DNA of 36,407 nt from a virus: IMG/VR virus record IMGVR_UViG_3300007799_000009, positions 1-36,407 of that record; one strand, written 5' to 3'. Shown here one piece after another: positions 3,145-36,214 of this stretch. How positions within the stretch are numbered: position 1 is the first letter of the stretch; every line of letters begins with the position of its first letter. The notes under the pieces were generated by a model. The model ran no database searches. It saw nothing but the letters and a program-made list of their open reading frames with translations, and had not been told where the DNA came from. A program made the position numbers and the translations under genes.

Positions 3145-3184
3145 GTTCGTACGCCTCCTTGGCGATGTTGAAACCGAACTTCAC
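3092..3184 (-). CDS. possible 30-residue acidic peptide overlapping the next gene
   Basis: A GTG at 3184 overlaps the TGA of the upstream ORF (GTGA) and opens MKFGFNIAKEAYERGYIEE followed by an acidic tail (EKEVEDDDGA). It overlaps the start of the Lys-rich zinc protein by 53 bp. The same bases code Lys-rich in one frame and Glu-rich in the other, so one of the two N-terminal readings may be fortuitous. Kept because of the coupling and the amphipathic, protein-like sequence. Confidence 0.4.
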   Translation of the reverse strand: MKFGFNIAKEAYERGYIEEEEKEVEDDDGA

Positions 3185-3312
3185 GTTCTCGAGGGGTGGC
3201 CTGTGACCTCGAGAAGGGTGAGATCACACTCCGTGATGATGATGGGTTGATGTTCCGGTGTTTCGTAGATGATGTGGACGAGACCGTCATCGTCGCAGTT
3301 GAACTGGTTCAT
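3181..3312 (-). CDS. degenerate H-C-C-C module protein
   Basis: 43 residues. It begins MNQFNCDDDGLVHIIYE, the hallmark start of the mini zinc-finger family, but stops at GHPSRT before any TCxxC. The ATG overlaps the TGA of the preceding family member (ATGA), so it sits at the end of a coupled string of five modules. Either the CxxC half has been lost by decay, or the remaining Cys (FNC, TEC) serve a different role. Confidence 0.5.
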   Translation of the reverse strand: MNQFNCDDDGLVHIIYETPEHQPIIITECDLTLLEVTGHPSRT

Positions 3313-3548
3313 GGTTCAGGCCCTTGTTCGTTCGGTGAACGAACGCCCCATTGAAACCATTGAAGCCCCGAACCATCGGAGCCGCCGATGCACCAGAAGC
3401 ACGTCGGCACCGCGTTGCGATCGTAATGTTGGTCCATCGTGGCAGCTCCGAAGCTGCCCTTGCAGACCGAAAGGCTCAGGCTCTTAACGTCGCGCAGGTG
3501 TACGACCGGGTCGGGTCCTTTGATGCGGGTGTAGTCGGTGTACTTCAC
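3309..3548 (-). CDS. H-C-C-C mini zinc-finger protein
   Basis: 79 residues from a GTG at 3548 that overlaps the preceding TGA (GTGA) with GGAGGAG upstream; an ATG at 3584 lies deeper in the previous gene and has no SD. Ligand candidates: His in PVVHL (near residue 16), Cys in SVCKG, and the pair in PTCFWC. A 25-residue tail (GGSDGSGLQWFQWG...) follows the module, unlike most members, which end right after it. DNA around the CxxC (CGATGCACCAGAAGCA on the plus strand) recurs at the members near 21.1 and 26.3 kb. Confidence 0.7.
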   Translation of the reverse strand: MKYTDYTRIKGPDPVVHLRDVKSLSLSVCKGSFGAATMDQHYDRNAVPTCFWCIGGSDGSGLQWFQWGVRSPNEQGPEP

Positions 3549-3796
3549 TTCCAGAAACTCCTCCCTGAGAGGCACCAGAGACATGTGACGGGTGCGAGCG
3601 TCTCGACCATACGGTGGTCGATCAAGCACACCGTCATACCGAGGTGGTTGGCGGTCACCTGTTGACTGCTCTCGTGAACGACGCCGTTGTCGTCAGCCCA
3701 GTGCCACGACAGACCCGCGCCAAGTCGTTGCGAGAGCACAGAGCCTTGCTCGCTCGTCGGTAGAGGTGTGTGTGGTGTAAACGTTCGACGCTTCAT
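3545..3796 (-). CDS. H-C-C-C mini zinc-finger protein
   Basis: 83 residues. The first 30 (MKRRTFTPHTPLPTSEQG...) are not shared with other members. The module runs from DDNGVVHES, through TVCLIDH, to PVTCLWCLS. The ATG at 3796 overlaps the TGA of its upstream neighbour. The end overlaps the next start by GTGA, so it is the middle of a coupled array. Confidence 0.75.
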   Translation of the reverse strand: MKRRTFTPHTPLPTSEQGSVLSQRLGAGLSWHWADDNGVVHESSQQVTANHLGMTVCLIDHRMVETLAPVTCLWCLSGRSFWK

Positions 3797-4035
3797 GGTT
3801 CGAACTCTTTTGCCAAACACTGGAGGCAAGTTACGAAACCGTTGAACAGGTGCGGCGGTTTGTTGGTGCGAGATGTGGTGACTATCACCTCGTAGACGCC
3901 GCAAAGCGTGACCCAGGTGACCGATTCTTCTTCGAAGACATTGTGAAGAACTCCGTGACGAAGACCGTGAAGACTCCAGACCTTGCCTTCGAGGTACATG
4001 AGCTGCCACCCACGATCGACGGCCGCGTGCCTCAC
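3793..4035 (-). CDS. H-C-C-C mini zinc-finger protein
   Basis: 80 residues from a GTG overlapping the previous TGA (GTGA). The His position is represented by a His-rich stretch (SLHGLRHGVLHNV) rather than the usual GLVH. The middle Cys is in VTLCGVYE and the pair is in FVTCLQCLA. It ends KEFEP. It lies directly downstream of an HNH-like protein that carries the same module at its C-terminus. Confidence 0.72.
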   Translation of the reverse strand: MRHAAVDRGWQLMYLEGKVWSLHGLRHGVLHNVFEEESVTWVTLCGVYEVIVTTSRTNKPPHLFNGFVTCLQCLAKEFEP

Positions 4036-4577
4036 GACGTTTCGATCTCAATCAGTGGTCGACCGTAACCCTGCCACTCCTTCACACAGTCTTCGCACGT
4101 GATGACAGCCTCCTTAGTCGTACGCAGTCGTCGTGTGGATGCACCACACATTGTGTAGTTCGTGTCGACGATACCGATGTGAACTGTACCAGGACGTCCT
4201 GCGCTCATATGTGGGTACTGGAGCAGACGAGCTATATCACTCGGTCCAAGCGTGTACGCTTTGTCGGTAGGCGGATTGGCGTAACGCCAATGACGCGGGT
4301 TGATACATGTAGCCAAACCACACGTGTTCTCGAGAAACAGACGGCGGATGCCAACACCGTCATTGTCCCAACACCAAAGCAATCGGGCGACAACGAACTG
4401 TACCGAGACCTCGGCCGGCGGCGTCCACGGAAAGATGGCGATCGGTCCTGCACCATCGTCATGGAACTCAGCGAGCCAATACCAGTGGTTCGGTGTGACC
4501 TCCACGAAGGGGTCAACCAGCTCACGGGGAGGGATCACAACCGTACGTCCGAAATGTCCAGGTAACCGGATACCCAT
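4032..4577 (-). CDS. HNH-like domain fused to C-terminal H-C-C-C module
   Basis: 181 residues from an ATG overlapping the upstream TGA (TGATG). The N-terminal two-thirds resemble the HNH_3 type of phage homing endonuclease (FVVARLL... then CGLATCINPRHW), but the position where the catalytic His of the bba-metal motif is expected reads LENTC, so nuclease activity is doubtful. Residues ~133-172 are a full mini-module: GTVHIG, MCGAS, VITCEDC. Its paralogue lies immediately upstream. I read it as a DNA-binding/structural zinc domain recruited onto the module (inference). Confidence 0.65.
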   Translation of the reverse strand: MGIRLPGHFGRTVVIPPRELVDPFVEVTPNHWYWLAEFHDDGAGPIAIFPWTPPAEVSVQFVVARLLWCWDNDGVGIRRLFLENTCGLATCINPRHWRYANPPTDKAYTLGPSDIARLLQYPHMSAGRPGTVHIGIVDTNYTMCGASTRRLRTTKEAVITCEDCVKEWQGYGRPLIEIETS

Positions 4578-5101
4578 CAGCAACCGCCTTTACATGTGAT
4601 GACTGCGTTGGTGGCGAGCACTGTGGAAACGTCGGGGACGATGACGGCTTCGCACATCGCAACAAACCTGGACGTCAGAACCGGGAGCACGGGCACTGCG
4701 TGCGAAACCCCGTGCTGGTCACGTACCGCGAGTAGCAGGCGCTTCTCCACAGGGCGTCCTGTTCGGCGCTCGACCACACGCCAACCCCCGTACTCGGCAG
4801 GGTCGAAGCGATACCGGGGCACAGGTTCAACCCATGTCCAGTGGTCCGGATTCACACAGCCCGGGTGACCGCACTTCAGTGTGAAGCTAGAACGTTCGGG
4901 GAACGGTCCTTTGTGGTGTTCGATAAGCAATCGAGCAACGACAAATATTCCACGCTTAACATTTGTGTTGGGCGCCCACGATATAACCGCATGGCCGTAC
5001 TCACTAAGACGACGTGGAAACTTGGCCTCGAGATCGACAGACCATAACCAATGCCCTGAAGCGTCTTCGTCCTTCACTATATAACGCAGTAAAAGCGCCA
5101 T
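4577..5101 (-). CDS. HNH-like domain fused to C-terminal module-like tail
   Basis: 174 residues if started at MALLLRYIVKDED (5101); the frame is open to a GTG at 5221 and no start has a convincing SD. It has the HNH_3 pattern GHWLW...FVVARLLIEHHKGPFP...LKCGHPGCVNPDHW; as in its downstream paralogue, the catalytic-His site is replaced (FTLKC). The C-terminus has GVSHAV, FVAMCEA and VITCKGGC, a module whose last pair is spaced C-x3-C instead of C-x2-C. Probably the first gene of the leftward operon. Confidence 0.65.
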   Translation of the reverse strand: MALLLRYIVKDEDASGHWLWSVDLEAKFPRRLSEYGHAVISWAPNTNVKRGIFVVARLLIEHHKGPFPERSSFTLKCGHPGCVNPDHWTWVEPVPRYRFDPAEYGGWRVVERRTGRPVEKRLLLAVRDQHGVSHAVPVLPVLTSRFVAMCEAVIVPDVSTVLATNAVITCKGGC

Positions 5102-5221
5102 CGGAGGCTGTTGTTTTCGGAGCCAAGTCGCTCCATGTGTTTTCAACAAGTTGGCGGAATATGACATATCCGTTTTAAAACTCGCGATGGGCCTATTCTG
5201 GCCTGGAAGAAAGAAACCCAC

Positions 5222-14775: not shown

Positions 14776-14985
14776 TCATTGCTTCCTCGCTTCGGCAAGG
14801 CACCACAAACACGTCGGCGTCTCCCCAAGGTCCACTTGGTCGAGCAGGTTCAACCAGTCCGTGTTGGGCTCGCACATCGGCGTCCACTGGTTCGGGTCAC
14901 TACGACCTCGCACCTCTATCTCGTAGTGGATGACGCCTGCGATGTCACGCCTCAGGTTGAAGCTGATACTCCACGTTACCGTCAT
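14776..14985 (-). CDS. H-C-C-C mini zinc-finger protein
   Basis: 69 residues from an ATG overlapping the previous TGA (ATGA at 14982-14985). Module: GVIHYEI, PMCEPN and PTCLWCLA, with a short polar tail (EARKQ). The first 18 residues (TVTWSISFNLRRDIA) are member-specific. Last gene of a seven-gene coupled array that starts at 16307. Confidence 0.72.
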   Translation of the reverse strand: MTVTWSISFNLRRDIAGVIHYEIEVRGRSDPNQWTPMCEPNTDWLNLLDQVDLGETPTCLWCLAEARKQ

Positions 14986-15305
14986 CTCGCTAGACATTCG
15001 AAACACGTGACCACGCGAACAGGATCATCGGCCTTTCGATTCTGCACCGCATGGAACACTGTCCATGAATGTGTAACGCCCTGCTCGTCCGTCCACGACG
15101 ACGGAACGATGCCCTTCTCACGCCACCAATTCGGATGGTACTCCGTGCGACGGATGCACTCGGCTCCGATCGCCTCCATCTCGGCATGCACGATGGGCGG
15201 ATAGAGCGAGCCCACCATCGTGTTGTACAGCTCAGTTCGTTGTTCGAAGCCTCGAAGGAGGCTCTCGTTGTCCCACTTCATCAAGTCTTCAGACACGAGG
15301 ACCAT
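14982..15305 (-). CDS. module protein with long helical N-terminus, middle Cys missing
   Basis: 107 residues; the ATG at 15305 is 6 nt after AAGGAG (the ATG at 15311 abuts it). Residues 1-60 form a helical extension (SEDLMKWDNESLLRGFEQ...AEMEAIGAECIRR). The module part reads GVTHSW then VVTCFECLA with no Cys between, so zinc could be held by only three of the usual ligands or by the His in VFHAV. It has its own SD and a 52-bp gap upstream, unlike most members. Confidence 0.68.
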   Translation of the reverse strand: MVLVSEDLMKWDNESLLRGFEQRTELYNTMVGSLYPPIVHAEMEAIGAECIRRTEYHPNWWREKGIVPSSWTDEQGVTHSWTVFHAVQNRKADDPVRVVTCFECLAR

Positions 15306-15357: not shown

Positions 15358-15543
15358 TCACACCCACGCGGCCATGCACCGCAGGCACGTCACCGTTCGT
15401 TCCTCTATCGTCTGGAACCGTCGGTGAATGGGTTCATCGCAATCCCCGATGTCGATGTTGCACAAGGTCCACCACGTGTTGCCCCAAAGGTTCACGAGGT
15501 GAACGAGGCCTTCATCGATAAGAAGTACAGGTTGAACTTTCAT
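15358..15543 (-). CDS. H-C-C-C mini zinc-finger protein
   Basis: 61 residues, start by ATGA overlap. Module: EGLVHLVNL, WTLCNID and TVTCLRCMA. One of the shortest versions: 11 residues, then the module, then AWV. An additional Cys (GDCDE) sits between the middle Cys and the final pair. Confidence 0.72.
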   Translation of the reverse strand: MKVQPVLLIDEGLVHLVNLWGNTWWTLCNIDIGDCDEPIHRRFQTIEERTVTCLRCMAAWV

Positions 15544-15722
15544 GACAATGGCACTTTGAAGAACGTGTCGTAGTAGATACGTGCGAGGCACGTCGGTGCA
15601 TCGCGGATGAGCTGCGTGTCTCTATCCGGTGCGTAGGGCCCGTAACACACCGGACGTGGGCCGAATGCTTTCATCTTCATGATGTGCACGAGCCCGTCGG
15701 AGCTTCGCCACTGTTGCTTCAT
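15540..15722 (-). CDS. decaying H-C-C-C mini zinc-finger protein
   Basis: 60 residues, coupled on both sides (ATGA). It starts MKQQWRSSDGLVHIM and has PVCYGPY, but the terminal pair reads PTCLAR: the second Cys is Arg (CGT, one transition from TGT). The sequence runs on to an unrelated tail (IYYDTFFKVPLS). Zinc binding should be impaired, so this looks like an inactive or re-purposed copy retained in the string. Confidence 0.62.
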   Translation of the reverse strand: MKQQWRSSDGLVHIMKMKAFGPRPVCYGPYAPDRDTQLIRDAPTCLARIYYDTFFKVPLS

Positions 15723-15901
15723 GGCCGTCGCATCCGCGTCGCAATGCACCACAGACATGTCGGCATGTCTTTGCTCAAGGCCTCACCTTCCTTGGGGTGG
15801 CGCTTCGAGTAGCAGATGGGCCACACGACGGACGGGTTGCGCCCTATAACCAGCATCGTCTCCACGATGTGGACGATGTCCTCGTGATCGCGCCACGTCA
15901 C
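15719..15901 (-). CDS. H-C-C-C mini zinc-finger protein
   Basis: 60 residues; GTG start at 15901 overlaps the preceding TGA (GTGA). Module: EDIVHIVET, WPICYSK and PTCLWCIA, followed by TRMRRP. The stretch between middle Cys and CxxC is Lys/Glu-rich (KRHPKEGEALSKDM). Confidence 0.72.
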   Translation of the reverse strand: MTWRDHEDIVHIVETMLVIGRNPSVVWPICYSKRHPKEGEALSKDMPTCLWCIATRMRRP

Positions 15902-16113
15902 CACTTGATGATCCCCGGTTCGCCATCCTTACGAATGAGACCTGAATCGAAACGGTCGAACGAGTCCGCAATGCACCACAGACACGTCGGAACCGCGATG
16001 ATCACGCGGTCGGGTGGCGGTCGGTAGTGACCCGTGCACGCCATCACAAATGAACCCCCGAGCAAGATGTGCACGAGACCATCACCGTCGATCCAGAAAA
16101 GTTCTGTGGTCAC
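15898..16113 (-). CDS. H-C-C-C mini zinc-finger protein
   Basis: 71 residues; GTG start (GTGA overlap). Module: GDGLVHILL, MACTGHY and PTCLWCIA. Unlike its neighbours it continues for 18 residues after the module (DSFDRFDSGLIRKDG...), a polar tail that may carry a specific contact surface. Confidence 0.72.
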   Translation of the reverse strand: MTTELFWIDGDGLVHILLGGSFVMACTGHYRPPPDRVIIAVPTCLWCIADSFDRFDSGLIRKDGEPGIIKW

Positions 16114-16307
16114 AGCGCGTCTACCTTGGCGATGCACTGCAGACATGTGAGGACGACGTTAGCCCCGACCAGCTTGAACATGGAGCGGGTCCGAAGCGCG
16201 TAGCCTGACGTCGAGCATATGGTGTACGTATCCCACGTAACGTCGTCAGGGCCGAGGTGGACGAGACTGTTGTCGTCAACCCACTGTGCGTAACCGCTCA
16301 GGGTCAT
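16110..16307 (-). CDS. H-C-C-C mini zinc-finger protein, first of array
   Basis: 65 residues, ATG at 16307 with AAAGG 7 nt upstream, the only strong SD in this array apart from 15305. Module: NSLVHLG, YTICSTS and LTCLQCIA. As first gene of the seven-gene string it probably sets the translation level for those coupled behind it. Confidence 0.75.
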   Translation of the reverse strand: MTLSGYAQWVDDNSLVHLGPDDVTWDTYTICSTSGYALRTRSMFKLVGANVVLTCLQCIAKVDAL

Positions 16308-17048: not shown

Positions 17049-17471
17049 TCACGCGGAGAAACGTTCGATGGTGCGGCTGTACGCACGCATCAGACGCGGC
17101 GAGACAGTGATGGCCTTGATGCGGCGCAGGGCCATTGCCTTCGACGTCACGATGCTCTTTTGCTGACCTTCAGATTGGTAGCCAGCATCTTCGATGCCCC
17201 ACCACACACTGTTGATGAGGGGCACGAGCGGGATCTTCAGGACGTCGAACTGTAGACGGATGACCCGCAGCTCGTGAAGTTGCGCTCGGCCGCAGGTCAT
17301 GGTTTCGAGGCACATGTTCATGTCCTCGATGTCATCCTTGCGTTTGCATGGCGGCTTTCGAAACAGCACGACGTAGTGCGCCAGCTCGTGGAGGCAGTAG
17401 TCGAGGTCTCCACTGGACCCGCGCTGCGTGTCGATTCTGTTGAAGTTGATGACGAGGTTGGTTTCGTTCAT
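17049..17471 (-). CDS. HExxH-motif putative metallopeptidase-like protein
   Basis: 140 residues from an ATG that overlaps the preceding TGA. CLHELAHYVVL near residue 27 is a zinc-protease HExxH; a later HEL (QLHELRV) could supply the third ligand. The rest is helical with no signal peptide. Size and layout fit small phage HExxH proteins of unknown target. The upstream partner is a mini zinc-finger gene, and this gene ends the operon. Confidence 0.62.
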   Translation of the reverse strand: MNETNLVINFNRIDTQRGSSGDLDYCLHELAHYVVLFRKPPCKRKDDIEDMNMCLETMTCGRAQLHELRVIRLQFDVLKIPLVPLINSVWWGIEDAGYQSEGQQKSIVTSKAMALRRIKAITVSPRLMRAYSRTIERFSA

Positions 17472-17680
17472 GGTGGATTCACAACCGAGAGACACCACAA
17501 ACACGTCACAGGCGTGTCGGGCGGTAAGTCGAGGGGCTTCGTAGCGATCTCAGGACCAAAGTCCAAACACAGGCGATACCACACAGCGTCATCTATGATT
17601 TCATACTTCCACAGTACATGGACGATACCGTTTACATCGATGACGCGCGCGTGCACGAGGGTGTAGTTTGGTTCACCCAT
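17468..17680 (-). CDS. H-C-C-C mini zinc-finger protein
   Basis: 70 residues; the ATG at 17680 overlaps the preceding gene by 8 bp. Module: NGIVHVLW, YRLCLDF and PVTCLWCLS. The N-terminal 20 residues contain a second VH (TLVHARV), as if an older His segment had been duplicated. Confidence 0.72.
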   Translation of the reverse strand: MGEPNYTLVHARVIDVNGIVHVLWKYEIIDDAVWYRLCLDFGPEIATKPLDLPPDTPVTCLWCLSVVNPP

Positions 17681-17855
17681 CGCGAGCCACGCATTGCAGG
17701 CACGTTGCAAGCATGTAGGGCGGTTTCGGTCTGACCCACTTCTCGCCATGGCAATCGCCGCCACACAGGAAGTAGAACAACATACCGTTGTAGCCACGGT
17801 CCACGTGCTCTCGCACGACGTGCACAAGGTTATTTTTGCGGTCGAAGAGTGTCAT
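17673..17855 (-). CDS. H-C-C-C mini zinc-finger protein
   Basis: 60 residues, ATGA start. Module: NNLVHVV, YFLCGGDCHG and ATCLQCVA. There are two closely spaced Cys in the middle segment, so ligand choice is ambiguous. Almost no sequence outside the module. Confidence 0.72.
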   Translation of the reverse strand: MTLFDRKNNLVHVVREHVDRGYNGMLFYFLCGGDCHGEKWVRPKPPYMLATCLQCVARDG

Positions 17856-18052
17856 GGGTTTCTTTTCGCGATGCACTCGAAGCACGTGGGAACTGCATCA
17901 GCGCACCAGCGCCACGCGAGAATCGTGTCTTCGCCGGCGCATTCGACGTAGACCGTGCTGCCTAGATGTTCGTGCTCGGTCTGAGAGGCGATATGGACCA
18001 GTCCGTCCTTGCGCTCGAGACTGCGGATGCTTCGGTAGTGGACGTCGGTCAC
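17852..18052 (-). CDS. H-C-C-C mini zinc-finger protein
   Basis: 66 residues, GTG start (GTGA overlap). Module: DGLVHIASQ, YVECAGED and PTCFECIA, with an extra Cys (WRWCADA) five residues before the final pair. It begins TDVHYRSIRSLERK. Confidence 0.72.
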   Translation of the reverse strand: MTDVHYRSIRSLERKDGLVHIASQTEHEHLGSTVYVECAGEDTILAWRWCADAVPTCFECIAKRNP

Positions 18053-18240
18053 AGGTCGAACATCCGCCCCGGGCGGTTCCCTAGACACGTCAGGCACGTT
18101 GGAAACCCTTTCTCATTCACGGTCTGAAGAAAGACCTTGGGCGCGTTGCACAAAACGTCGTAGTTCCATGGCTGCATGGGATCGACGATTGCGATGTGAA
18201 CGACGTGGTTGCGGTCCCTAACCAGGACCGACGCCGACAA
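18049..18240 (-). CDS. H-C-C-C mini zinc-finger protein with TTG start
   Basis: 63 residues if started at TTG 18240, which has GAGGAG 4 nt upstream. The ATGs further upstream (18309 and beyond) would run through the neighbouring gene in a poorly coding frame. Module: HVVHIAIV, DVLCNAP and PTCLTCLG, then a basic tail (NRPGRMFDL). It overlaps the upstream gene by 23 bp. Confidence 0.65.
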   Translation of the reverse strand: MSASVLVRDRNHVVHIAIVDPMQPWNYDVLCNAPKVFLQTVNEKGFPTCLTCLGNRPGRMFDL

Positions 18241-21091: not shown

Positions 21092-21277
21092 GGCCGCCCT
21101 TTTCGCCGATGTTCCGCGATGCACCAGAAGCAGGTGGCCTCGGGCGCGTCATCGTCCGCGTGGCATTGGTTCAGGTAGAGCGCGTACTCCGAGAGACACC
21201 ACGCGACTTTTGAGCCGTTTGCTATCAGGTACCGCGTGATGTGCGATGCCGGTTGAATCGATCCATCGAATGACCAT
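21088..21277 (-). pseudogene. frameshifted H-C-C-C mini zinc-finger gene
   Basis: From ATG 21277 (GGAGG upstream) one frame reads VIRWIDSTGIAHHAV, a typical first half, but then loses the pattern. After a run of four A on the minus strand (21208-21211) the next frame reads AWCLSEY...EATCFWCIA, the missing second half. Removing one A restores a normal member. Either a single-base insertion or a +1 programmed shift. The alternative continuous frame from 21384 would have to be translated through an intrinsic-type terminator, which I consider unlikely. Confidence 0.6.
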
Positions 21278-21290
21278 CGGCCTCCGTGTC

Positions 21291-21322
21291 GAAAAAAGAA
21301 GGCGCCGCATTCCTGCGACGCC
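21291..21322 (-). terminator. intrinsic-type terminator (leftward)
   Basis: On the minus strand GGCGTCGC-AGGAAT-GCGGCGCC (8-bp stem with one G-T pair) is followed at once by TTCTTTTTTC. Strong GC stem plus U-tract. It closes the long gene-free region upstream. A TATACT hexamer lies 4 bp before the stem, but a start there would be inside the hairpin. Confidence 0.75.
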
Positions 21323-22507
21323 TCCAGTATAGCCCCTCCAGTGATCACTAGACCAATCCGCTCACAGCGTTTCCAATGCAGCATATCCAGTCATTCGCAT
21401 GCACGTCCTCACCTCCGTCGTCCGTTCTATCACCGCGTTTCCAGTCATCCCCGCCACCATGCATGACCATTCCTTTGGCGTTACCGCCATTGTTTCCCGT
21501 TTAACACCCATCCAATCACCCCAAACCCATTGCAGCCATTCCGGTGCGGTGTGCTCCCATCAGAGCCAAGCCTTCACGGCCCGTTCCGGTGCAGCCATAC
21601 CATTGCTCTCCGAAGCATTGAATGCCCCGAGTTTCCCCTGCAGCTGTCCCCCTGTATCGTAGCCCTAACATCACCCGTGCACGCCTATGCGGCCCTACAT
21701 CTCCAGTGCTTTCCTTCGACGCCTACCGTAGGCCGCTCCGCTCCAATGCCGCCGTTCCTTTATCTTGCGGACCACTCGACGCCTCACGCTTCCTATGCAG
21801 CCATTCCTAACCGCCTACTTTCCCCACGCCTCCGTGCCCCACCTGTGACCTCGCCGCCTCTGCAGCTTCTCCACTCGTCACAGTGCCAACCATCACCCGA
21901 CATTTCCTTTGCAGCCTTTCCGATGTGCTCCACGCGAGACAAGTCCTACGTTGTCCACTGCCGCCGGTCCGTTGCCGCCCCGCCCTCTCCACGCGCATCG
22001 CACCTAGTCCATAGTACGCTTCGCGCACCCGCCCCAATGCTGCCTTTCCATCCCTCAACTTTCACTACCTATCAGGTCATTTCCGGTGCTGCCGTTCCAA
22101 TGCGTCCACTTCATATCCCATGACGTCCTGTCGCAATGCGGCAAGTCCGCCCGGCACCACTGCTCGCTCTTCCTCACGCAACCTATACAGCCTATCCACT
22201 CCACGCAGTTGACGTCGCACCCTTACACCTCATCCACGCTCCACTGCCGCCCTCGCAATCGCGCCCTTCGACTCCTTACATCCACAATCCGATGCAGCAT
22301 CTCCATTAAGATCCAACACGGTCCTGACCCATCAGGTCCGGTCGCCTCCCCTGCCGCCACTCACTCAAAAAACAACCCGCAAATCGAATCCATTGCTCTC
22401 CGATGCGATCGTTTCCTCACCCTTCAGAACCAACCCCACGCCGCCTATCCAATGACGTCCGGTGAAGATCGAACCAGCCTAGACGTTCCCTCTGCAGCCA
22501 CTCACCC
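21323..22507 (-). ncRNA. 1.1-kb gene-free, strand-asymmetric repeat region; candidate long ncRNA
   Basis: There is no convincing gene on either strand. The minus strand is strongly purine/G-rich (one 60-base line, 21841-21900, has 27 C and 10 G on the plus strand). It is studded with a degenerate unit of about 20 nt, roughly GGAAnGGCTGCAnnGGAA, for example at 21529-21545, 21581-21599, 21795-21810, 21908-21922 and 22079-22101. Long rightward frames (21530-22123, 22086-22592) exist only because plus-strand purines are scarce; they lack SDs and are low-complexity. It lies between a leftward gene (22508-23083) and a terminator, so it should be transcribed. Calling it a functional RNA is inference. 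Confidence 0.4.
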
Positions 22508-24195: not shown

Positions 24196-24375
24196 CTATG
24201 GCGCAAGCTTAGGAACGGCCGACGTCGCGTTTTCACGGGCGATGCATGCAAGACACGTCACGAGCTTTGGTTCGAGGTCGATGACGACAGGCGCCTCGTC
24301 TTGCCAGGTACGGATCCACTCGCACCACTCGTTGCTTACGTAGTGGACGAGACCTCCTGTATCCGTACATGTCAC
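24196..24375 (-). CDS. H-C-C-C mini zinc-finger protein
   Basis: 59 residues; GTG start at 24375 overlaps the preceding TGA (GTGA). Module: GGLVHYVS, EWCEW and VTCLACIA. The middle Cys comes early, leaving a long acidic segment before the pair. Ends RENATSAVPKLAP. Confidence 0.72.
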   Translation of the reverse strand: MTCTDTGGLVHYVSNEWCEWIRTWQDEAPVVIDLEPKLVTCLACIARENATSAVPKLAP

Positions 24376-24536
24376 CAAGGTTTCCACAATCGACTAATAA
24401 CGCACCAGAAACAGGTAGGGAAGCGCGCAGACCCTTGCTCGGGTACGCCATCCATCCGCTTGTTGCAACACGTCCAGTCGGGGAACCGTTTCGTAACAAC
24501 GTGAACTACGCCTTCATGATCAGTGTACGTAGTCAC
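24372..24536 (-). CDS. H-C-C-C mini zinc-finger protein
   Basis: 54 residues, one of the smallest complete copies. GTG start with AAGGAAG upstream, overlapping the preceding gene by 17 bp. It reads TTYTDHEGVVHVVTKRF, then WTCCNKR and PTCFWCVI, ending RLWKPW. Adjacent Cys (CC) occupy the middle position. Confidence 0.68.
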   Translation of the reverse strand: MTTYTDHEGVVHVVTKRFPDWTCCNKRMDGVPEQGSARFPTCFWCVISRLWKPW

Positions 24537-25065
24537 GCAGGTCTTCCTTAGCGAGGCACTGCAGACACGTGATCATGACTTGGTCGCGGACCAACTGAAG
24601 CTTGGCGTACCGCTCGGTGGTCATCTCGTTGACGTAAAGTAGGCGTCCGTTGCGTTCACAAAGAGGGTAGAGGTCAAGAGGCTTCCGCGCATGGACGATC
24701 CCGGCTACGTCAGCCATTGGGACGGCCCCTGCCCGAAAGTCTTGGACGATGAGCTTTCCCCTGCGTGTCAGCGTACGTTCGTGGTCAACGTAATCAGATT
24801 TGACCAATCGTTCGAGGGCTCCTCGACTCAATGAGAATGTTTCCCCTCGTGCATTCGTTTCTAGCCACAACAGTGCACGCGAGGACATCGTGAGCGGGTT
24901 GTCCATCTTCAAACAACCCGGACACGTTGGCGTCTTGTCACTGCGTTCACCTGTGTCGTAGTACGAACCGCACAAAGTCCAAACAGGGCCGGCGGCCTTC
25001 TGCGTCTTGGTCTCGTGGATGACGTGCCAGACGTACCCACGTTTAACCTTATAGGTTGTCTTCAT
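24520..25065 (-). CDS. double-module protein with central winged-helix-like domain
   Basis: 181 residues from an ATG overlapping the upstream TGA. Residues ~12-55 hold a first module (WHVIHETK, WTLCGSYYD, PTCPGCLK). Residues 60-110 resemble a small winged helix (SSRALLWLETNARGETFSLSR...LTRRGKLIVQDF). Residues 118-178 hold a second module (AGIVHARKPL, YPLCERNG, ITCLQCLA). It is the only protein here with two full modules and shows they can be combined with a DNA-binding-type fold. First module WxLCG and PxC are closest to the general form. Confidence 0.7.
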   Translation of the reverse strand: MKTTYKVKRGYVWHVIHETKTQKAAGPVWTLCGSYYDTGERSDKTPTCPGCLKMDNPLTMSSRALLWLETNARGETFSLSRGALERLVKSDYVDHERTLTRRGKLIVQDFRAGAVPMADVAGIVHARKPLDLYPLCERNGRLLYVNEMTTERYAKLQLVRDQVMITCLQCLAKEDLRDYVH

Positions 25066-25283
25066 GGTTCTGCGCTCCTTGCCAGACACGCGAAACATGT
25101 GGTTGGTGGAGGTGTTGTTACAACGAAACAGACTTCGTCGATCGTTCCACCGTTGTGTGAGAACGCTTCGATGATGTCAGGGTCTATAGTGAACAGAATT
25201 TCGCACACCGTCTTGCCCCAGTGATCTTCATCCTCGGGCCGGAACTGTACGTGCGCGAGTCCGTCATCTGTCTTGATGAGCAC
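25062..25283 (-). CDS. H-C-C-C mini zinc-finger protein
   Basis: 73 residues, GTG start 1 bp after the previous stop. Module: DGLAHVQF, KTVCEIL and PTTCFACLA. It has an unusually long middle segment (about 37 residues from the first Cys to the final pair) with an extra Cys (EVCFVV). Coupled to the double-module gene by ATGA. Confidence 0.7.
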   Translation of the reverse strand: MLIKTDDGLAHVQFRPEDEDHWGKTVCEILFTIDPDIIEAFSHNGGTIDEVCFVVTTPPPTTCFACLARSAEP

Positions 25284-25284
25284 G

Positions 25285-25488
25285 TTACAACGGGCCTTTA
25301 TCTAGCTCGCGATCCACCATCGCGATGCATTGGATGCACATGGGGAACTGTCCAGGTTCTGGCTTGAACGAGCTGTTGAGGTATTGCTCTTTGCCGCAGA
25401 CGAGGAGGATGCCTCGCATCTCGTACTTCCAATGTGTGACACCGTAGTTGTCGGTGAAAAGTGTGATGTTGTGTACCGGCCTATCCAT
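25285..25488 (-). CDS. H-C-C-C mini zinc-finger protein
   Basis: 67 residues; the ATG lies 8 bp inside the preceding gene. Module: YGVTHWKYE, LLVCGKE and PMCIQCIA (Met replaces the usual Thr before the first Cys). Ends MVDRELDKGPL. Confidence 0.7.
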   Translation of the reverse strand: MDRPVHNITLFTDNYGVTHWKYEMRGILLVCGKEQYLNSSFKPEPGQFPMCIQCIAMVDRELDKGPL

Positions 25489-25663
25489 GCTTGAAGTTCC
25501 CGATGCACAAGAGGCACGTTAGGATTTTGTCGCCGCCGAAGTATTTGGCCCCGATGATCGACTGCCCACACGCGGCCCAGATCGCATCCTTGTAGATGAC
25601 GTGCTTCAAGCCGTCTTGGCCCATGTAGTAGCGGTCGAATGTCCGGGTTTTACGGCGTGCCAT
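25481..25663 (-). CDS. H-C-C-C mini zinc-finger protein
   Basis: 60 residues; begins ARRKTRTFDRYYMGQDGLKHVIYK. Module: GLKHV, AACGQS and LTCLLCIG. Basic N-terminus. The ATG lies 3 bp after a possible 19-residue peptide. Confidence 0.7.
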   Translation of the reverse strand: MARRKTRTFDRYYMGQDGLKHVIYKDAIWAACGQSIIGAKYFGGDKILTCLLCIGNFKHG

Positions 25664-25777: not shown

Positions 25778-25984
25778 ATGAAGCCCCTTTGCTTCTATTC
25801 CATGTTCTCGGCTGAGCAGTGCCCCAAGGCTCTGGCTTGGATGGCAGCGCTTTGCGCTTCCACGGGACGCGGACATGACGCTGAGCAGTGGCTGATCGAG
25901 CTGATCGAGTCGGTGCTGTTCACCCACCAGAACGTCGTTCGGCCGACCGAGATTGCGCTGCGAGACACTGCAAGCATGTCGTGA
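25778..25984 (+). CDS. small helical protein related to receiver N-terminus
   Basis: 68 residues, MKPLCFYSMFSAEQCPKAL.... Residues 18-52 (ALAWMAALCAS...AEQWLIELIESVL) resemble the N-terminal ~55 residues of the receiver protein at 16497. No SD is visible. The last 65 bp overlap the convergent mini-module gene (25920-26135). It is a lone rightward gene within leftward arrays. Confidence 0.5.
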   Translation: MKPLCFYSMFSAEQCPKALAWMAALCASTGRGHDAEQWLIELIESVLFTHQNVVRPTEIALRDTASMS

Positions 25985-26135
25985 TCTTCCGACGGGTTGG
26001 CTCGAGCTGCGCTGACGACCAGATGGAAACTTCGCCAGCGCCCTCATAGTTTTCGCAGGCGGTCACACGTACACCCAGCTCATGGTCTTGTGCATCGTGC
26101 ACGAGCCCGTCGGGGTCTAGGTAGCGGCGAGGCAT
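25920..26135 (-). CDS. H-C-C-C mini zinc-finger protein
   Basis: 71 residues; the ATG lies within the CxxC coding of the preceding gene (19-bp overlap). Module: DPDGLVHDAQ, VTACENY and ITTCLQCLA. A Ser/Arg tail (AQSRSAERRSGG) follows. It overlaps a convergent rightward gene. Confidence 0.7.
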   Translation of the reverse strand: MPRRYLDPDGLVHDAQDHELGVRVTACENYEGAGEVSIWSSAQLEPTRRKITTCLQCLAAQSRSAERRSGG

Positions 26136-26314
26136 TGAAGACAGGTCACGGGTTGGTGAAAGACTTCTTCCATGTCCCGCATGTTGAGGTCAAACCCGCC
26201 GACGTCATCGGCTTCGCAGACCATGAGCGAGTTGGCTCCAAAGCTCCCACCGCAGACGTGAACGAGGCCTTTTCGGTCCCGGAACGTCTGTGGTTCACGC
26301 TTTTTCCACGTCAT
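26117..26314 (-). CDS. H-C-C-C mini zinc-finger protein
   Basis: 65 residues; ATG overlaps the preceding TGA and has GGAGG about 10 nt upstream. Module: RKGLVHVCG, LMVCEADD and PVTCLQCLA. An extra Cys directly follows the VH (VHVC). N-terminus TWKKREPQTFRDR is basic. Confidence 0.73.
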   Translation of the reverse strand: MTWKKREPQTFRDRKGLVHVCGGSFGANSLMVCEADDVGGFDLNMRDMEEVFHQPVTCLQCLAAT

Positions 26315-26694
26315 GCACCCGCCTCCGCGATGCACCAGAAGCAGTAGACGGGGTCGTGCTCCCAGATCGCGTGGTCGTTGACGATCTCCTCGAGTTCGCC
26401 GGCTAGTTCCGTCAGGGCCGTGTGCACCATGTCGTCGTAGTAACCGCCGCCCGCCATGAAGCTTTGCCTCGACTCGTACGCACATCCGCCGAGGTAGTCA
26501 CTGCACGTAATGCCTTTGTACGTGGCCGACACTTTGACAATGCACCACGCCCATTCGTTGCCGCGAGCAAGCTGATCCCGAATCCACTCCACACATGTTG
26601 GGTCGTCAAACTCTCCAACATAGCTTCGGTCCTCGGGTTCGACGAAAAGTTTGACTGCCGCGACCTTTTTCAGCTTCTCTAGGTCGATCTTCAT
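26311..26694 (-). CDS. phage protein family (EDR/SDYLGGC type) fused to CFWCIA tail
   Basis: 127 residues. The core (KLFVEPEDRSYVGEFDD, RGNEWAWCIVKVSATYKG, CSDYLGGCAYE, GGYYDDMVHTALTEL) is a small protein type widespread in phages and bacteria, from memory, normally without a CxxC end. Here it continues to DPVYCFWCIAEAGA, the exact terminal signature of the mini zinc-finger family. It looks like acquisition of the tail by recombination with a neighbour. Confidence 0.72.
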   Translation of the reverse strand: MKIDLEKLKKVAAVKLFVEPEDRSYVGEFDDPTCVEWIRDQLARGNEWAWCIVKVSATYKGITCSDYLGGCAYESRQSFMAGGGYYDDMVHTALTELAGELEEIVNDHAIWEHDPVYCFWCIAEAGA

Positions 26695-26903
26695 CGTCCT
26701 TGCCACCGTTCTTCGACGATGCGAACGGCGTCGTCCTGGTCCGCGGCGTCGCCCCATCCACCGCGAGCGTCTCGCCATCGCCATGCAGGCCCGGTCCCCC
26801 GGTTCACAGGCTCGAAGTTCTTGAATTCGACTTCGCCGGTGACGACACCGTCGATCACAACCTCGGCGCACATGGTGCCGGGCTTCTTACGCAGCTCAGT
26901 CAT
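26691..26903 (-). CDS. small hypothetical protein
   Basis: 70 residues, TELRKKPGTMCAEVVIDGVVTGEVEFKN..., with AAAGGA upstream and ATGA overlaps on both sides. A beta-rich first half is followed by a Trp/Gly segment (AWRWRDARGGWGD) and a C-terminal helix. Unrecognised. Confidence 0.68.
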   Translation of the reverse strand: MTELRKKPGTMCAEVVIDGVVTGEVEFKNFEPVNRGTGPAWRWRDARGGWGDAADQDDAVRIVEERWQGR

Positions 26904-27325
26904 GGTTTTCCTTTCGCCCAATAGGCGATGCAGTCGAAGCACGTGACGGCTTCGACCTGCGGTCGTCGTCCGACAGCCGTTTCGATTCCGCATGAGAATT
27001 GAAACGTCGGATCCGCCCACGAGATGCACTTGAACGCTTGATGGACAGTACCCTCGTGTTCGACGAGCATCTTCTCGCCGTTGTTGTAGTCTCTCGCGCG
27101 GACGGTTTGCTGCTCGCGGTCCTTCGTGATGATGTCTTCCGTTTCCTCGGACGCATACCAACCACGTTCCCGATCTTCGAGGTCGACGACTTCTTCTTCG
27201 TTGTACGGATTGATCTGGACGGCACCACAGTGGCGGCATACGGCCGCAGTCACTTGTTGCATGCCGACGCCATTGTCGACGTACTCCGCGTCTGTATCAC
27301 GCGAGCCGCACCAACCGCAGGTCAC
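26900..27325 (-). CDS. zinc ribbon plus C-terminal H-C-C-C module
   Basis: 141 residues with GTG start at 27325 (GTGA overlap; an in-frame GTG at 27346 is possible). The N-terminus is a classic ribbon (TCGWCGSRD...AVCRHCGAV). A central acidic helix (EEEVVDLEDRERGWYASEET) follows. The C-terminus carries a module: GTVHQAF, QFSCGIE and AVTCFDCIA. So two zinc sites joined by a charged linker. Confidence 0.7.
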   Translation of the reverse strand: MTCGWCGSRDTDAEYVDNGVGMQQVTAAVCRHCGAVQINPYNEEEVVDLEDRERGWYASEETEDIITKDREQQTVRARDYNNGEKMLVEHEGTVHQAFKCISWADPTFQFSCGIETAVGRRPQVEAVTCFDCIAYWAKGKP

Positions 27326-27570
27326 CACTGGATGCAGGTCAGGCACGTGATTGACGGTGCGACCTCAAGCGAGCCGGGGTCGCCACTGTTGATCGCGCGG
27401 CAGGGGCACATGAAGTTGAGGTACGCAACGCCTTGCGCGACGTTCCACTCAACATTGTACACTGCCGTAATGACCAACATGTGTCCAAGTCCATCAGGTC
27501 CGATGACGATCTCGTGATCGCCGACCTTGGGCAGTGTGCGTGCCTGCGCCAGGACTTCGTTGAGCTTCAT
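27322..27570 (-). CDS. H-C-C-C mini zinc-finger protein
   Basis: 82 residues, ATGA start. N-terminal helix (KLNEVLAQARTLPKVG). Module: DGLGHMLVI, FMCPCRA and ITCLTCIQW. It ends immediately after the pair. Two Cys (CPC) occupy the middle position. Confidence 0.7.
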   Translation of the reverse strand: MKLNEVLAQARTLPKVGDHEIVIGPDGLGHMLVITAVYNVEWNVAQGVAYLNFMCPCRAINSGDPGSLEVAPSITCLTCIQW

Positions 27571-33120: not shown

Positions 33121-33404
33121 CAGCGTCGGGTGGGTTTGGTGGTCGCGTTACGTACGAGCCACGTTTCAACGAGGTCGTCGACGGTTTTGAGGATGTCCTT
33201 GTCCTCGTTGGCAAGCACGATGGTCGCTTCCAGCGCCACATCATCCATACGGGCTTTGACGCGGTACTGGTAAGCCGTGTAGCCGAGGACCAGCACGCCG
33301 ACGTCGCACTTGTCGGGGAACACGAATCCCTTGATGCGCTCGACGTCGAGCGAACGCCTGACCTGGTCTCCGAACTTCTGGGTCACTTCTTCTTTGTTGA
33401 GCAT
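33120..33404 (-). CDS. hypothetical protein
   Basis: 94 residues, LNKEEVTQKFGDQVRRSLDVERIKG..., with GGAAGGA 7 nt upstream. Mixed alpha/beta (VGVLVLGYTAYQYRVKA); the C-terminal helix ends in a basic TTKPTRR. Overlaps the preceding mini-module gene by 22 bp. Unrecognised. Confidence 0.65.
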   Translation of the reverse strand: MLNKEEVTQKFGDQVRRSLDVERIKGFVFPDKCDVGVLVLGYTAYQYRVKARMDDVALEATIVLANEDKDILKTVDDLVETWLVRNATTKPTRR

Positions 33405-33634
33405 CGATAGTCCTTCCCAAACGCGTCGACAATGAGGCACTCCGTACAGGTTGGAGGACCTGGTGTGATTCGATTTTGGCTGCCGGGGTTCAGCTTGGCG
33501 TGACGACCACATGCAAGCTCCGCTTGGCGATTGGGGTCGAGTCCCACGCCGTTTGCGTCGATCCGAACGTCTTGTTCGAATCCGGACCAGCTGAGCCAGC
33601 GCAGGACGATGTGAACGCCGTCGTGACGTTTCAT
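33383..33634 (-). CDS. H-C-C-C mini zinc-finger protein
   Basis: 83 residues, ATGA start at 33634. Module: HDGVHIVLRW, ELACGRHA and PTCTECLI, then a tail with another Cys (KDYRCSTKKK). The long segment between His and the middle Cys includes an Asn/Asp loop (RIDANGVGLDPN). Confidence 0.7.
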   Translation of the reverse strand: MKRHDGVHIVLRWLSWSGFEQDVRIDANGVGLDPNRQAELACGRHAKLNPGSQNRITPGPPTCTECLIVDAFGKDYRCSTKKK

Positions 33635-33885
33635 GTACCAGGGAGGCCGCGCGACAGACAAAACAGACATGTGACGACCTCCTTGGTTGGGGTTCCGTTT
33701 GACGGGTCTTGCATCCAGAGCCCGCGTTCGCGGCATGTGAAGCGTAGGTTCAACGGCAACACTGAGCGTGGAGCGTCGACAGCCTTGCGCAGTGAGAATT
33801 CAACAGGAACCCGTTCTCCCACGATGTCCCAAGCCTCAGTGACGATATGGACGACTCCATCCGGATCTTGAAACCGTCGGCTCAC
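33631..33885 (-). CDS. H-C-C-C mini zinc-finger protein
   Basis: 84 residues; GTG start overlapping the preceding TGA (GTGA). Module: PDGVVHIVT, RFTCRERG and VVTCLFCLS. The region between His and middle Cys is long (about 37 residues) and basic. Confidence 0.72.
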   Translation of the reverse strand: MSRRFQDPDGVVHIVTEAWDIVGERVPVEFSLRKAVDAPRSVLPLNLRFTCRERGLWMQDPSNGTPTKEVVTCLFCLSRGLPGT

Positions 33886-34370
33886 TTGCGATCGATCACT
33901 GGATAGCCGATTTTCACGTCGCCGAGGTTTGGCCGCGACATCGCGACGGGGTTTAGAACGCTTCCACCGAACACCGCGCGTTCCATCAAAGCGATCAGGC
34001 TGCTACGCATCAGGCCGTTCGGACGCAGCTTGCGGTACTGCTGCAGCGTCTTGCCTTTGGGGTCGGCTTCGCACATCCCTTGGAAGACCATCCACTCGCG
34101 CTGCACGACTACGAGAGCGCCTGTACACTCGTTGATCGTGTCTCGCTCGGCGAGTGCCTCATAACCCGAGAACACCGCCATTCGCGGGTCCGTTGGATGG
34201 CACGACATACGTGCTCCGTTGCGCAAGCCTTTCCATAACCGCGCCAAGTTGGCGGGAGTATAGAATTTATATGGGTCGGGTTTTGAGCTTTGATTGGCAA
34301 GACGCCATGGACAGTGCTTGCACGGCACCAGACACGCGGCTTTGACTGTGGCTGTCGACTTCAGAACCAC
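33882..34370 (-). CDS. Cys-Cys-Pro protein (CxxCPWR...CH...CxGA)
   Basis: 162 residues from GTG 34370; a GTG at 34406 is also in frame and neither has a well-spaced SD. VPCKHCPWRL, RMSCHPT and NECTGALVVV repeat the layout of the gene at 30247, with the same order and similar spacing. The C-terminal part (GLMRSSLIALMERAVFGG) is helical. Likely a metal or Fe-S centre; role unknown. Confidence 0.68.
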   Translation of the reverse strand: MVLKSTATVKAACLVPCKHCPWRLANQSSKPDPYKFYTPANLARLWKGLRNGARMSCHPTDPRMAVFSGYEALAERDTINECTGALVVVQREWMVFQGMCEADPKGKTLQQYRKLRPNGLMRSSLIALMERAVFGGSVLNPVAMSRPNLGDVKIGYPVIDRK

Positions 34371-34793: not shown

Positions 34794-35107
34794 TAAATGT
34801 GTTTCCACTGTTTCCGGTTAACGATGAGCGTCACCTGTTTTTGACTGACGCCAAAACGTACCGCGAGCACACGGTGTAGCGCGCCATTGGCGTGCGTCTT
34901 ACGCATCGCGATTACTTGCGGTGCTGTTAGCTTGGACATTCCACTACGTTCTCCGAGGGGCGGATTTCCTCGGCCCTTACGAAGCATGTCCAGACAATTG
35001 TCTCGAGTGGTACCTTTGAACAAGTGTTTAAGGTTCACACACCATGGATTGTCACACGTATGAAGTGCCTTTTTGTTCCCTAAAGGTCCATGACGCAGTT
35101 CCCACAT
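34793..35107 (-). CDS. HNH endonuclease, HNH_3-like, N-terminally short
   Basis: 104 residues from ATG 35107. WELRHGPLGN, ALHTCDNPWCVNLKHL with the His and paired Cys intact, then GTTRDNCLDMLRKGRG and a C-terminal helix-turn-helix (LTAPQVIAMRKTHANGAL...LAVRFGVSQKQVTLIV). The frame continues upstream (GHGLAHRV, normal for the family) only to a TGA 12 codons before, so the usual N-terminal WLW region is missing. It abuts a broken MazG-like gene and is probably a mobile insertion. Confidence 0.72.
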   Translation of the reverse strand: MWELRHGPLGNKKALHTCDNPWCVNLKHLFKGTTRDNCLDMLRKGRGNPPLGERSGMSKLTAPQVIAMRKTHANGALHRVLAVRFGVSQKQVTLIVNRKQWKHI

Positions 35108-35211
35108 CACACGGTGGGCCAGACCATGTCCTGTAGTTCACCCGCTTCTGTGCAGATGCCGATCATGCCGTGGAGGAGTCGCGCGAGCATGCGGTCCTGG
35201 TCACTCAACAC
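35107..35211 (-). pseudogene. MazG-like nucleotide pyrophosphohydrolase fragment
   Basis: From GTG 35211 or TTG 35208: DRMLARLLHGMIGICTEAGELQDMV then WPTV and stop. LLHGMIGICTEAGELQD fits the first catalytic helix of MazG-like NTP pyrophosphohydrolases (xxEAGE), but the later ExxD half is absent and the HNH endonuclease begins at this point (TGATG). The adjacent 35212-35342 holds only a 22-codon frame (35201-35269). Confidence 0.55.
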
Positions 35212-35342
35212 GGTCTCGGTTGAAGCGGATGTGTTGACGAAATTCGGTGTCTTCTCCGAACGGAGTCAATCCTGTTGAAATTCATTTGGCGTCATCGAAG
35301 CCTGATACCATAACGAGACCCCAATTCGTTAACGAGATAAAC

Positions 35343-35759
35343 CTACGTTCGACGCCAGTGTTCCAGTATCAGCTGTTCGAACGCCCTTGTTGTTGCAGCA
35401 TCGGCACCTGCGTCCCGCAGCACCCGTGCGATCTCCTCGACGGGAACGCATTTGGGGTTGTCGTAGAGCTGATGGAACTTTTCATTCCAGCCAACCAGTG
35501 GCTCGAACGTCACGCTAGCTCCCTTGAGCTTTTCGCAAACGCCTTTGCACTCGTCGCAGAGCGACATCGCGCCTTTGCGTCCGTCCTTGCCCGCTTCTGC
35601 TTCACGGGCGTACCAGGTCGGTTTATTGGTACAGCGACCCCAACGTCCGCCGACGTCCCCGCCCATGATCCACGGGTTGTACGCTGATTTCACGTCCGCT
35701 TGGCAGCGTGCGTGATCGACGGACTCGAGTGGCGCGAGCTGGTTCGTAGCCTTGGTCAT
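35343..35759 (-). CDS. conserved-type zinc-containing phage protein
   Basis: 138 residues; ATG overlaps the preceding TGA. HARCQADV, AYNPWIMGGDVGGRWGRCTNKPTWY and MSLCDECKG give four Cys spaced as in a small phage protein I recognise without a known function. The second half (VEEIARVLRDAGADAATTRAFEQLIL) is helical. Confidence 0.7.
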   Translation of the reverse strand: MTKATNQLAPLESVDHARCQADVKSAYNPWIMGGDVGGRWGRCTNKPTWYAREAEAGKDGRKGAMSLCDECKGVCEKLKGASVTFEPLVGWNEKFHQLYDNPKCVPVEEIARVLRDAGADAATTRAFEQLILEHWRRT

Positions 35760-36214
35760 GTGAGTCCTCGCAGCTTGGCCTCGACGTTGAGCACTTCGAG
35801 CCATTCCTTCCAGTCCTTCTTGAACTCGCCCTCGTCACGCGTCAGCTTCGCGATGGAGTTGCGCAAGTGTTGTTCGTCCATCTCGAACACATAGAGCTTG
35901 CGACCGTCCTTGGTCTCCCACTTCCCGAGCCGCACGGTCTCCTCTCGGATGTAGCCCGGCACGCACGCAGGACAGCCGCGGCAGATCACACATTTCATGC
36001 ACGACGGACCGTCGTACACGACAAGCGTTGGACCGAAGTGAATCCTGCAGCAGGTCAGGTATGAATCCCCGCCCTCGAGCCGCGCACACGTGTGAATCAG
36101 ACCGTCGTCGAATTTGTGGAAGTCACGCGCAACGTTGTAGGGTGGTTCGTAGTTGCCTGGAACGACGCTGTTGCGTGTTGTGTGCAACAGTCGACGAGAC
36201 TTCGTCGCCGTCAT
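35756..36214 (-). CDS. module protein with extra Cys cluster and charged C-terminus
   Basis: 152 residues. Residues ~35-80 hold a module (DDGLIHTCAR, YLTCCRIHFG, PSCMKC) that runs on into VICRGCPACVPG, giving seven Cys in all. The C-terminal half (KDGRKLYVFEMDEQHLRNSIAKL...DWKEWLEVLNVEAKL) is a charged helical region not shared with the other members. The ATG at 36214 overlaps nothing and has a weak SD. Confidence 0.68.
   Translation of the reverse strand: MTATKSRRLLHTTRNSVVPGNYEPPYNVARDFHKFDDGLIHTCARLEGGDSYLTCCRIHFGPTLVVYDGPSCMKCVICRGCPACVPGYIREETVRLGKWETKDGRKLYVFEMDEQHLRNSIAKLTRDEGEFKKDWKEWLEVLNVEAKLRGLT

Follow-up and report, generated by a model that had tools for sequence, protein, structure and literature searches.

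An expanded family of small His/Cys modules with a lineage-specific knuckle in a clade of large phages

Module genes in the window

The viral sequence analyzed here (IMG/VR virus record IMGVR_UViG_3300007799_000009; 36,407 bases, hereafter the window) carries an array of small leftward genes belonging to one family, whose ~55-residue module contains one His and three Cys (H...C...[TD]C-h-x-C-[ILV]-[AV]) and ends in a knuckle formed around the last two Cys. The window is 99.9% identical, with a circular offset, to a longer record, G001 (IMGVR_UViG_3300027850_000002; 175,415 bases): window positions 1-14,597 correspond to the end of G001 (160,819-175,415) and 14,825-36,407 to its start (1-21,582), with 227 window bases separating the two blocks. 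Among the products of G001 are an insertion-bearing large terminase, a DNA polymerase, a primase, an RNA-polymerase beta-like protein and a protein that matches a tail sheath (E 2.6e-6); on these grounds it was taken as a contractile-tailed phage of ~175 kb. Megablast of window positions 1-25,000 against 50,697 named phages gave no match, and the nearest terminases among named phages, from Salmonella phage Arash and Vibrio phage D69, are ~29% identical.

The window contains 33 modules, a few of them weak, in 32 leftward open reading frames (ORFs), in agreement with an earlier note that had described about thirty leftward one-module genes here. A profile of the module (A4), whose rows include members from the window and the sister phage so that the window count is in-sample, gave 34 matches at E<=1, of which 29 reach E<=0.001; every match is on the minus strand. 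The ORF at 24520-25065 holds two modules, and two partial A4 matches sit in 33631-34002. The earlier note had listed (D/G)GLVH, a central Cys and a terminal TCLxC as the shared features; the ligand module held up, but the exact (D/G)GLVH is present in a minority of members, the general form being xGh[VT]H. The terminal C-x-x-C is missing from the members at 3181-3312 and 15540-15722, and the proposed 36-kb member does contain DGLIH...SCMKC but escapes A4. The module genes are the following, all recovered by A4 except where stated.

3181..3312, minus: degenerate or truncated member with DGLVH, without terminal C-x-x-C (A4 E 0.006)
3309..3548, minus: module gene, TCFWC
3545..3796, minus: module gene, TCLWC
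3793..3999, minus: module gene, TCLQC
4032..4577, minus: putative His-Me/HNH-like zinc loop, read from sequence, with C-terminal module, TCEDC
4577..5221, minus: possible HNH-like protein (weak Pfam match, E 0.095) with degenerate C-terminal module (A4 E 4e-5)
14776..14985, minus: module gene, TCLWC
14982..15305, minus: module gene without clear central Cys, TCFEC
15358..15543, minus: module gene, TCLRC
15540..15722, minus: member without the last Cys, PTCLAR (A4 E 0.0016)
15719..15901, minus: module gene, TCLWC
15898..16113, minus: module gene, TCLWC
16110..16307, minus: module gene, TCLQC
17468..17680, minus: module gene, TCLWC
17673..17855, minus: module gene, TCLQC
17852..18052, minus: module gene, TCFEC
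18049..18240, minus: module gene, TCLTC
18872..19147, minus: module gene, start uncertain, without clear central Cys, TCFTC
20876..21091, minus: module gene, TCFVC
21088..21384, minus: weak member without GLVH-type His, TCFWC (A4 E 1e-4)
24196..24375, minus: module gene, TCLAC
24372..24536, minus: module gene, TCFWC
24520..25065, minus: two-module protein, TCPGC and TCLQC joined by a linker
25062..25301, minus: module ORF, start unclear, TCFAC
25285..25518, minus: open frame with module at 25309-25470, MCIQC
25481..25663, minus: module gene, TCLLC, structure predicted
25920..26135, minus: module gene, TCLQC
26117..26314, minus: module gene, TCLQC
26311..26694, minus: possible divergent member, YCFWC (E 0.04; not recovered by A4)
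26900..27346, minus: N-terminal zinc-ribbon-like domain (phrog_6115, E 1e-12; resembles Lar) with module, TCFDC
27322..27570, minus: module gene, TCLTC
33383..33670, minus: weak member, TCTEC (A4 E 0.0013)
33631..34002, minus: open frame with split-scoring module, start unclear, TCLFC
35756..36214, minus: the 36-kb member of the earlier note, DGLIH...SCMKC (E 0.37; not recovered by A4)

The summed length of these 34 ORFs, overlaps included, is 9.2 kb, or up to about a quarter of the window. The coupled strings reported earlier were recovered: 22 of the 33 neighbour pairs overlap, 16 of them by exactly 4 nucleotides, although these counts partly depend on the choice of starts, which were hand-picked, and two of the 4-nucleotide overlaps involve a misframed ORF (25298-25484). 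The array extends beyond the window at 156-160.4 kb of G001, and one further member lies at 64 kb of that record. Two adjoining putative HNH/His-Me-finger-like proteins occupy 4032-5221, each with a module at its end, the second degenerate.

A hidden Markov model (HMM) trained on the window members and run iteratively against six-frame ORFs from related contigs matched 178 of 8,833 ORFs (181 modules); reversed ORFs, a control for the iterated HMM and not for A4, never scored better than E 0.013. All matches of any one contig lie on a single strand, and a plain regular expression gives the same pattern. The expression [DGEN]G[LI][VIA]H...TC..C[ILV] was found in 6 window ORFs and in none of 50 first-order Markov shuffles, and TC..C[ILV]A occurred 15 times in the window versus a mean of 0.08 (maximum 1) in as many shuffles, so that the motif is more than compositional bias. 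An origin of the family by chance, from compositional bias or as antisense ORFs was rejected.

The proposed four-ligand site is likewise borne out, all four residues being kept in 168 of the 181 HMM-found modules; these would be the ligands of a putative zinc. In a 74-row alignment, every row keeps the His and the last two Cys, and at least 90% keep the central Cys, an invariance that is partly selected since the rows are the query and 73 of 91 rows pre-filtered for H...C...C-x-x-C. A4 itself draws on part of these 91 rows. The model predicted for one member (25481..25663) contains two short strands, the second with the His, and a last helix that begins at C-x-x-C. Its best BFVD matches were weak (Caulobacter phage CcrSC, E 0.16; Streptomyces phage Nesbitt, E 1.5), and the CcrSC genome gave no A4 match. 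The model of the two-module protein has a predicted local distance difference test score (pLDDT) of 35, and a PDB sequence search yielded no match.

Copy number, age and lineage-specific knuckle

Over 18,364 ORFs, the iterated HMM found 68 modules in G004, 44 in G010 (the sister phage of G001), 39 in G001, 36 in G018, 27 in G014, 13 in G017 and 9 in G006, with 2 more in the fetched parts of G009; these counts, and the code counts given below, omit G004 40,001-80,000, G014 40,001-85,000 and 100,001-120,000, G018 after 80,000 and most of G009. Whole records searched with A4 at E<=0.01 gave 62 matches in G004, 42 in G010, 37 in G001, 27 in G014, 13 in G018, 10 in G006, 5 in G017 and none in G002, the A4 counts dropping in contigs whose knuckle code (the residue right after the first Cys of the knuckle) departs from the rows of A4. 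Sixteen further contigs encode a related terminase, and 10 of them matched the first profile. The six that did not comprise five pieces (5-32 kb) and G017 (156 kb), whose members are found by wider profiles. Two contigs with a terminase at 91%, G008 (105 kb) and G009 (138 kb), gave 3 matches each, and G315 (terminase 48%) has no family members, including by plain regular expression. The profile counts thus confirm a large paralogue set, with up to 68 modules per related contig versus one per named relative.

Most copies can be followed between sister phages. Thirty of 40 G001 modules are reciprocal best hits of G010 modules. After masking of the knuckle this holds for 27 of 37, with 23 adjacent colinear steps versus 2.6 in shuffles. 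The closest paralogues within a genome have a median identity of 33-36% in G001, G010, G014 and G004, and nonsynonymous divergence was below synonymous divergence (pN < pS) in every orthologue pair tested (28 of 28 and 21 of 21). The family diverges faster than other genes, with a median reciprocal-best identity of 51.5% (27 ORFs) versus 79.7% in 46 core-like gene pairs. From the one-to-one orthologues, their order, pN < pS and the ~35% identity of paralogues, it follows that the modules are mostly old genes, individually retained and fast-changing, rather than freshly duplicated. The 'diversifying arsenal' and 'decoys' suggested in the earlier note fit poorly with this.

The stretches between ligands are private to each copy: in G001-G010 orthologues the two stretches are 43% and 36% identical, versus 7% and 9% in paralogues (28 versus 741 pairs). 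In the same pairs the knuckle, ligands included, is 72% identical in orthologues and 54% in paralogues, the latter value being raised by the ligands themselves. The code residue tracks the lineage rather than the gene. Code counts drop modules without C-x-x-C, which leaves 37 of 39 modules in G001, 34 of 36 in G018, 12 of 13 in G017 and all in the others. In the G001-G010-G014 clade the code is Leu, Phe, Ile or Met in 102 of 108 modules, the remainder being three Pro and one each of Glu, Asp and Val (G001: L23 F9 I2 P1 M1 E1, n=37; G010: L19 F13 I6 M4 P1 D1, n=44; G014: L16 F4 I3 M2 P1 V1, n=27). In G004 it is Val or Ala in 67 of 68 (V54 A13 M1). In G018 (M32 P1 D1, n=34) and G017 (M12, n=12) it is Met in 44 of 46 together, the knuckle of these two being mostly D-C-M-T-C-L-V. 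Ile or Val occupies the position in 8 of 9 G006 modules (I6 V2 R1), and Leu in both of those from G009. G005 (Val/Ala, one Ser) agrees with G004, and G011 (Leu/Phe/Ile/Met, one Asp) with G010, but as near-identical sisters of these contigs they are not independent support. Between G004 and the G001 clade, the Jensen-Shannon divergence of the code column is 0.94, with a z of 53 against label shuffles that treat paralogues as independent; the next column has z 7.7, and no column other than the code column exceeds z 8. Leu and Val are about equally frequent in long open frames of these genomes.

Relatives outside the clade and neighbouring genes

The module is more widely distributed than the array, which was found only in this clade among the material searched. 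Among eight named phages searched with A4, the whole record of CcrColossus contains a single good match, gp415 (E 1e-4); a match in phiKZ (E 0.02) was discounted since it contains a stop, and the other six gave none. CcrColossus gp415 matches phrog_15583 at E 1e-8 and has a 61% identical copy in Caulobacter phage DMCA (DMCA_048c). By profile comparison, the phrog_15583 group represents the same module (hhalign probability 95.7, E 9e-9), its profile comprising gp415, DMCA_048c, APU00868 of Aeromonas phage 59.1 and a Rhodobacter phage protein without the His; in direct scans of 30 window proteins, phrog_15583 was not among the 24 PHROG families obtained at E<=1. The Caulobacter copies show GLVH...CG...TC-x-x-C and lie within strings of small genes, like the window array. 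They differ in copy number: one in CcrColossus and one tblastn place per record in the other relatives, versus dozens here. No match at E<=0.001 was found in 296 genomes of the phylum of G019, in a search run without a positive control. An ORF without a listed gene on Pseudomonas plasmid pSTY (~2501-2665) contains CG...TC-x-x-C and resembles the phage relatives; three further Pseudomonas plasmids carry ORFs of this type.

Large phages with multi-copy zinc modules are already known. An expansion of zinc ribbons to ~35 copies was published for Bacillus phage G in a study of 224 jumbo phages, which also proposes a nucleic-acid-binding or transcription-regulating role for them (PMC7824862). In phage G, too, a small zinc module of a large phage has expanded in one lineage (PMC7824862). 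The present family is apparently unrelated to it: the phage G genome (497,513 bases) contains no A4 match at E<=1, and the small CPIC-type proteins in its first 50 kb, which we assume to be the published zinc-ribbon family, have another ligand pattern and a shared C-terminal tail of their own. Several of these small CPIC-type zinc proteins, at 26153-33106 of phage G, end in a common tail close to YWKENDRYLAK. Unlike that of phage G, the present family spans several phage lineages, each with a lineage-specific knuckle. No description of this family, its clade-wide spread or its lineage-specific knuckle turned up in searches of one library of open papers.

Two other families invite comparison. 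The actinobacterial DUF3039 (PF11238) has the same ligand order, H...CG...C-x-x-C, but its profile comparison is suggestive at most (hhalign probability 65.9); the G010 two-module protein scored 13.0 bits versus a cut-off of 22.7, and one of 30 window proteins reached E 0.003. The Lar restriction-alleviation proteins (PF14354, TIGR03655) are also small phage proteins of zinc type, with weak single-member matches (PF14354, E 0.18 and 0.64, below cut-off; TIGR03655, E 0.03, 1 of 30 members), and the Lar match of window 26900-27346 falls on the N-terminal domain, not on the module.

Several other features accompany the array. The G001 large terminase (69,045-71,723; 892 amino acids) has an insertion missing in many relatives, whose match covers ~530 codons, and a PHROG match to thymidylate synthase (phrog_85) lies at its residues 143-236; these features suggest that the insertion may be an intein, of a kind present in other genes too. 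Window 838-2178 (minus strand) encodes a DFP (CoaBC C-terminal) domain fused to a class II aldolase domain, with a relative in two viral contigs of the scan, one being the same phage. A response-regulator receiver domain protein is encoded at 16497-17045 on the plus strand, flanked on either side by a string of minus-strand module genes; a response-regulator query aimed at the host gave a single weak match. The gene at 29608-30078 (minus strand) matches phrog_4786, annotated as cysteine dioxygenase (E 7e-32). At 2713-2784 a 24-nucleotide unit is repeated three times head-to-tail, the third copy being 79% alike. Sigma-70-like promoters are rarer in window 16001-36000 than in shuffles (2 versus 5.7).

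Interpretation and rival explanations

A shared, lineage-matched face combined with private loops is most simply read as a standard plug on many different adaptors. It is a tentative possibility, short of an even chance, that the modules are adaptors that dock through the shared knuckle on one common partner while their loops bind separate clients. Each gene would then produce a tiny single-domain (rarely two-domain) metal-stabilized adaptor, in which, we infer, one zinc is bound by the His and three Cys. A partner common to the copies of a phage, in the simplest case a machine of the host or a hub protein of the phage, would be docked through the C-terminal knuckle, [T/D]-C-h-x-C-[ILV]-[A/V]. 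The inter-ligand stretches, unrelated among paralogues and kept in orthologues, would bind a different client per copy, and dozens of such adaptors could bring clients to, or keep clients from, one machine during infection. The term 'adaptors', one of several roles offered by the earlier note, gains support from the private loops and the shared lineage-specific knuckle. Somewhat more doubtful is the extended form of this proposal: a bank of dozens of exchangeable adaptors in which many paralogues, on a change of partner, re-tuned their lineage-matched zinc plug in parallel, so that the code would report the identity of the partner. The adaptor banks of F-box and SOCS-box proteins are comparable in logic, not in sequence.

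The main rival is separate expansion from different founders in each lineage, combined with fold constraint, whereby the code residue is packed in the core and no common partner exists; we consider it unlikely. Under a founder effect it is difficult to account for loops that are near random identity among paralogues, yet accompany an almost uniform Val/Ala or Met code. Moreover, knuckle-masked comparison of the G001 clade with G004 gave 13 reciprocal-best pairs at E<1e-5, involving 7 G004 modules, and in every one the two partners belong to different code classes. The window gene at 27322..27570 has a knuckle-masked orthologue in G004; G010 and G014 are linked to the same G004 gene, and links run from G010 and G004 to G006 as well. 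Within a lineage the code does not track the residue two before the His, which also speaks against a founder effect. In the masked tree of all rows, genomes are weakly separated, with 60 label changes where 100 shuffles gave 70.9 (minimum 61). Usage at third codon positions is largely that of the genome, and apart from some exceptions the codons point mainly to constraint at the protein level, not the DNA level. A masked tree of 35 selected rows rejects a single clade for the 8 copies of G004 (approximately unbiased (AU) test, p 0.003) and needs at least 7 class changes, but these rows were picked by similarity or orthology, a few from outside the intended orthologue groups were drawn in by loose name prefixes, and the tree has few resolved forks.

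These limits of the selected-row tree count against the adaptor proposal and its parallel re-tuning, and so do the following observations. For all 152 rows from four genomes (47 columns), the AU test does not reject one clade for the 68 modules of G004 (p 0.147), and separate expansions from code-carrying founders are therefore possible for many copies. One masked pair between G004 and G006 (136530/3370) has Val in both, and the steps of strict local colinearity linking G004 to the G001 clade (0, 2 and 0) do not clearly exceed shuffles. The third base of the G004 code codon is G in 45 cases versus 20 expected, as expected if Met (ATG) or Leu (CTG) changed to Val (GTG), or after recent descent; C-ending codons are scarce just before the first Cys in several genomes. 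Either common ancestry or effects at the DNA level could account for these codon deviations. The code position almost always holds a hydrophobic residue, one that may be part of the domain core; in G004 this position shows weak coupling to a second position of the knuckle (z 4.1). G017 contains a pair of nearly identical modules within ~900 bases (ORFs near 3 and 903 of G017 1-5000), representing either a recent duplication or an assembly effect. Finally, the one-member model is mediocre (pLDDT 69), and Foldseek with VIA-align found no solved-structure match for it. Taken with the masked orthologues, several paralogues probably predate the lineage split and switched code in parallel, with later lineage-specific duplication of others being possible.

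A general nucleic-acid-binding or transcription-regulating role, as the phage G study proposes for its zinc ribbons (PMC7824862), appears improbable for the present modules. It would be consistent with the module behind the HNH-like sequence read at 4032-4577, with weak single-member matches to DNA-binding zinc or regulator families (E 0.09-0.23) and with a match of the Caulobacter relative to GAGA factor (E 0.002, below the family cut-off). However, no Pfam, PHROGs or NCBIfam family, these included, matches more than one of 30 window members. The modules are not basic, with a median net charge of -1 (quartiles -3 to +1) and an isoelectric point above 8 in 25%, and a net charge near zero disfavours general nucleic-acid binding. 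Copies that bind each other through the knuckle could form a mixed assembly, in which the need to fit one another would keep the knuckles of a genome similar. Uniformity within a genome and change between lineages would then call for no separate partner, but the one-place relatives in other phages keep the T-C-x-x-C knuckle, and such an assembly is considered very unlikely. Equally remote is a bank of independent host-takeover or anti-defence inhibitors with targets of their own and no shared partner, or of decoys. The strings of small overlapping genes and the faster divergence of the family relative to core-like genes would suit such inhibitors, which nevertheless leave the shared lineage code unexplained, and the old orthologues, colinear within the clade, are unlike decoys in rapid turnover.

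Large phages carry many tiny genes of obscure role, and the comparison presented here separates a shared face from private faces in one such set. If the adaptor proposal is true, the family would represent a modular host-takeover system, and its shared knuckle would provide a handle for finding the hub.

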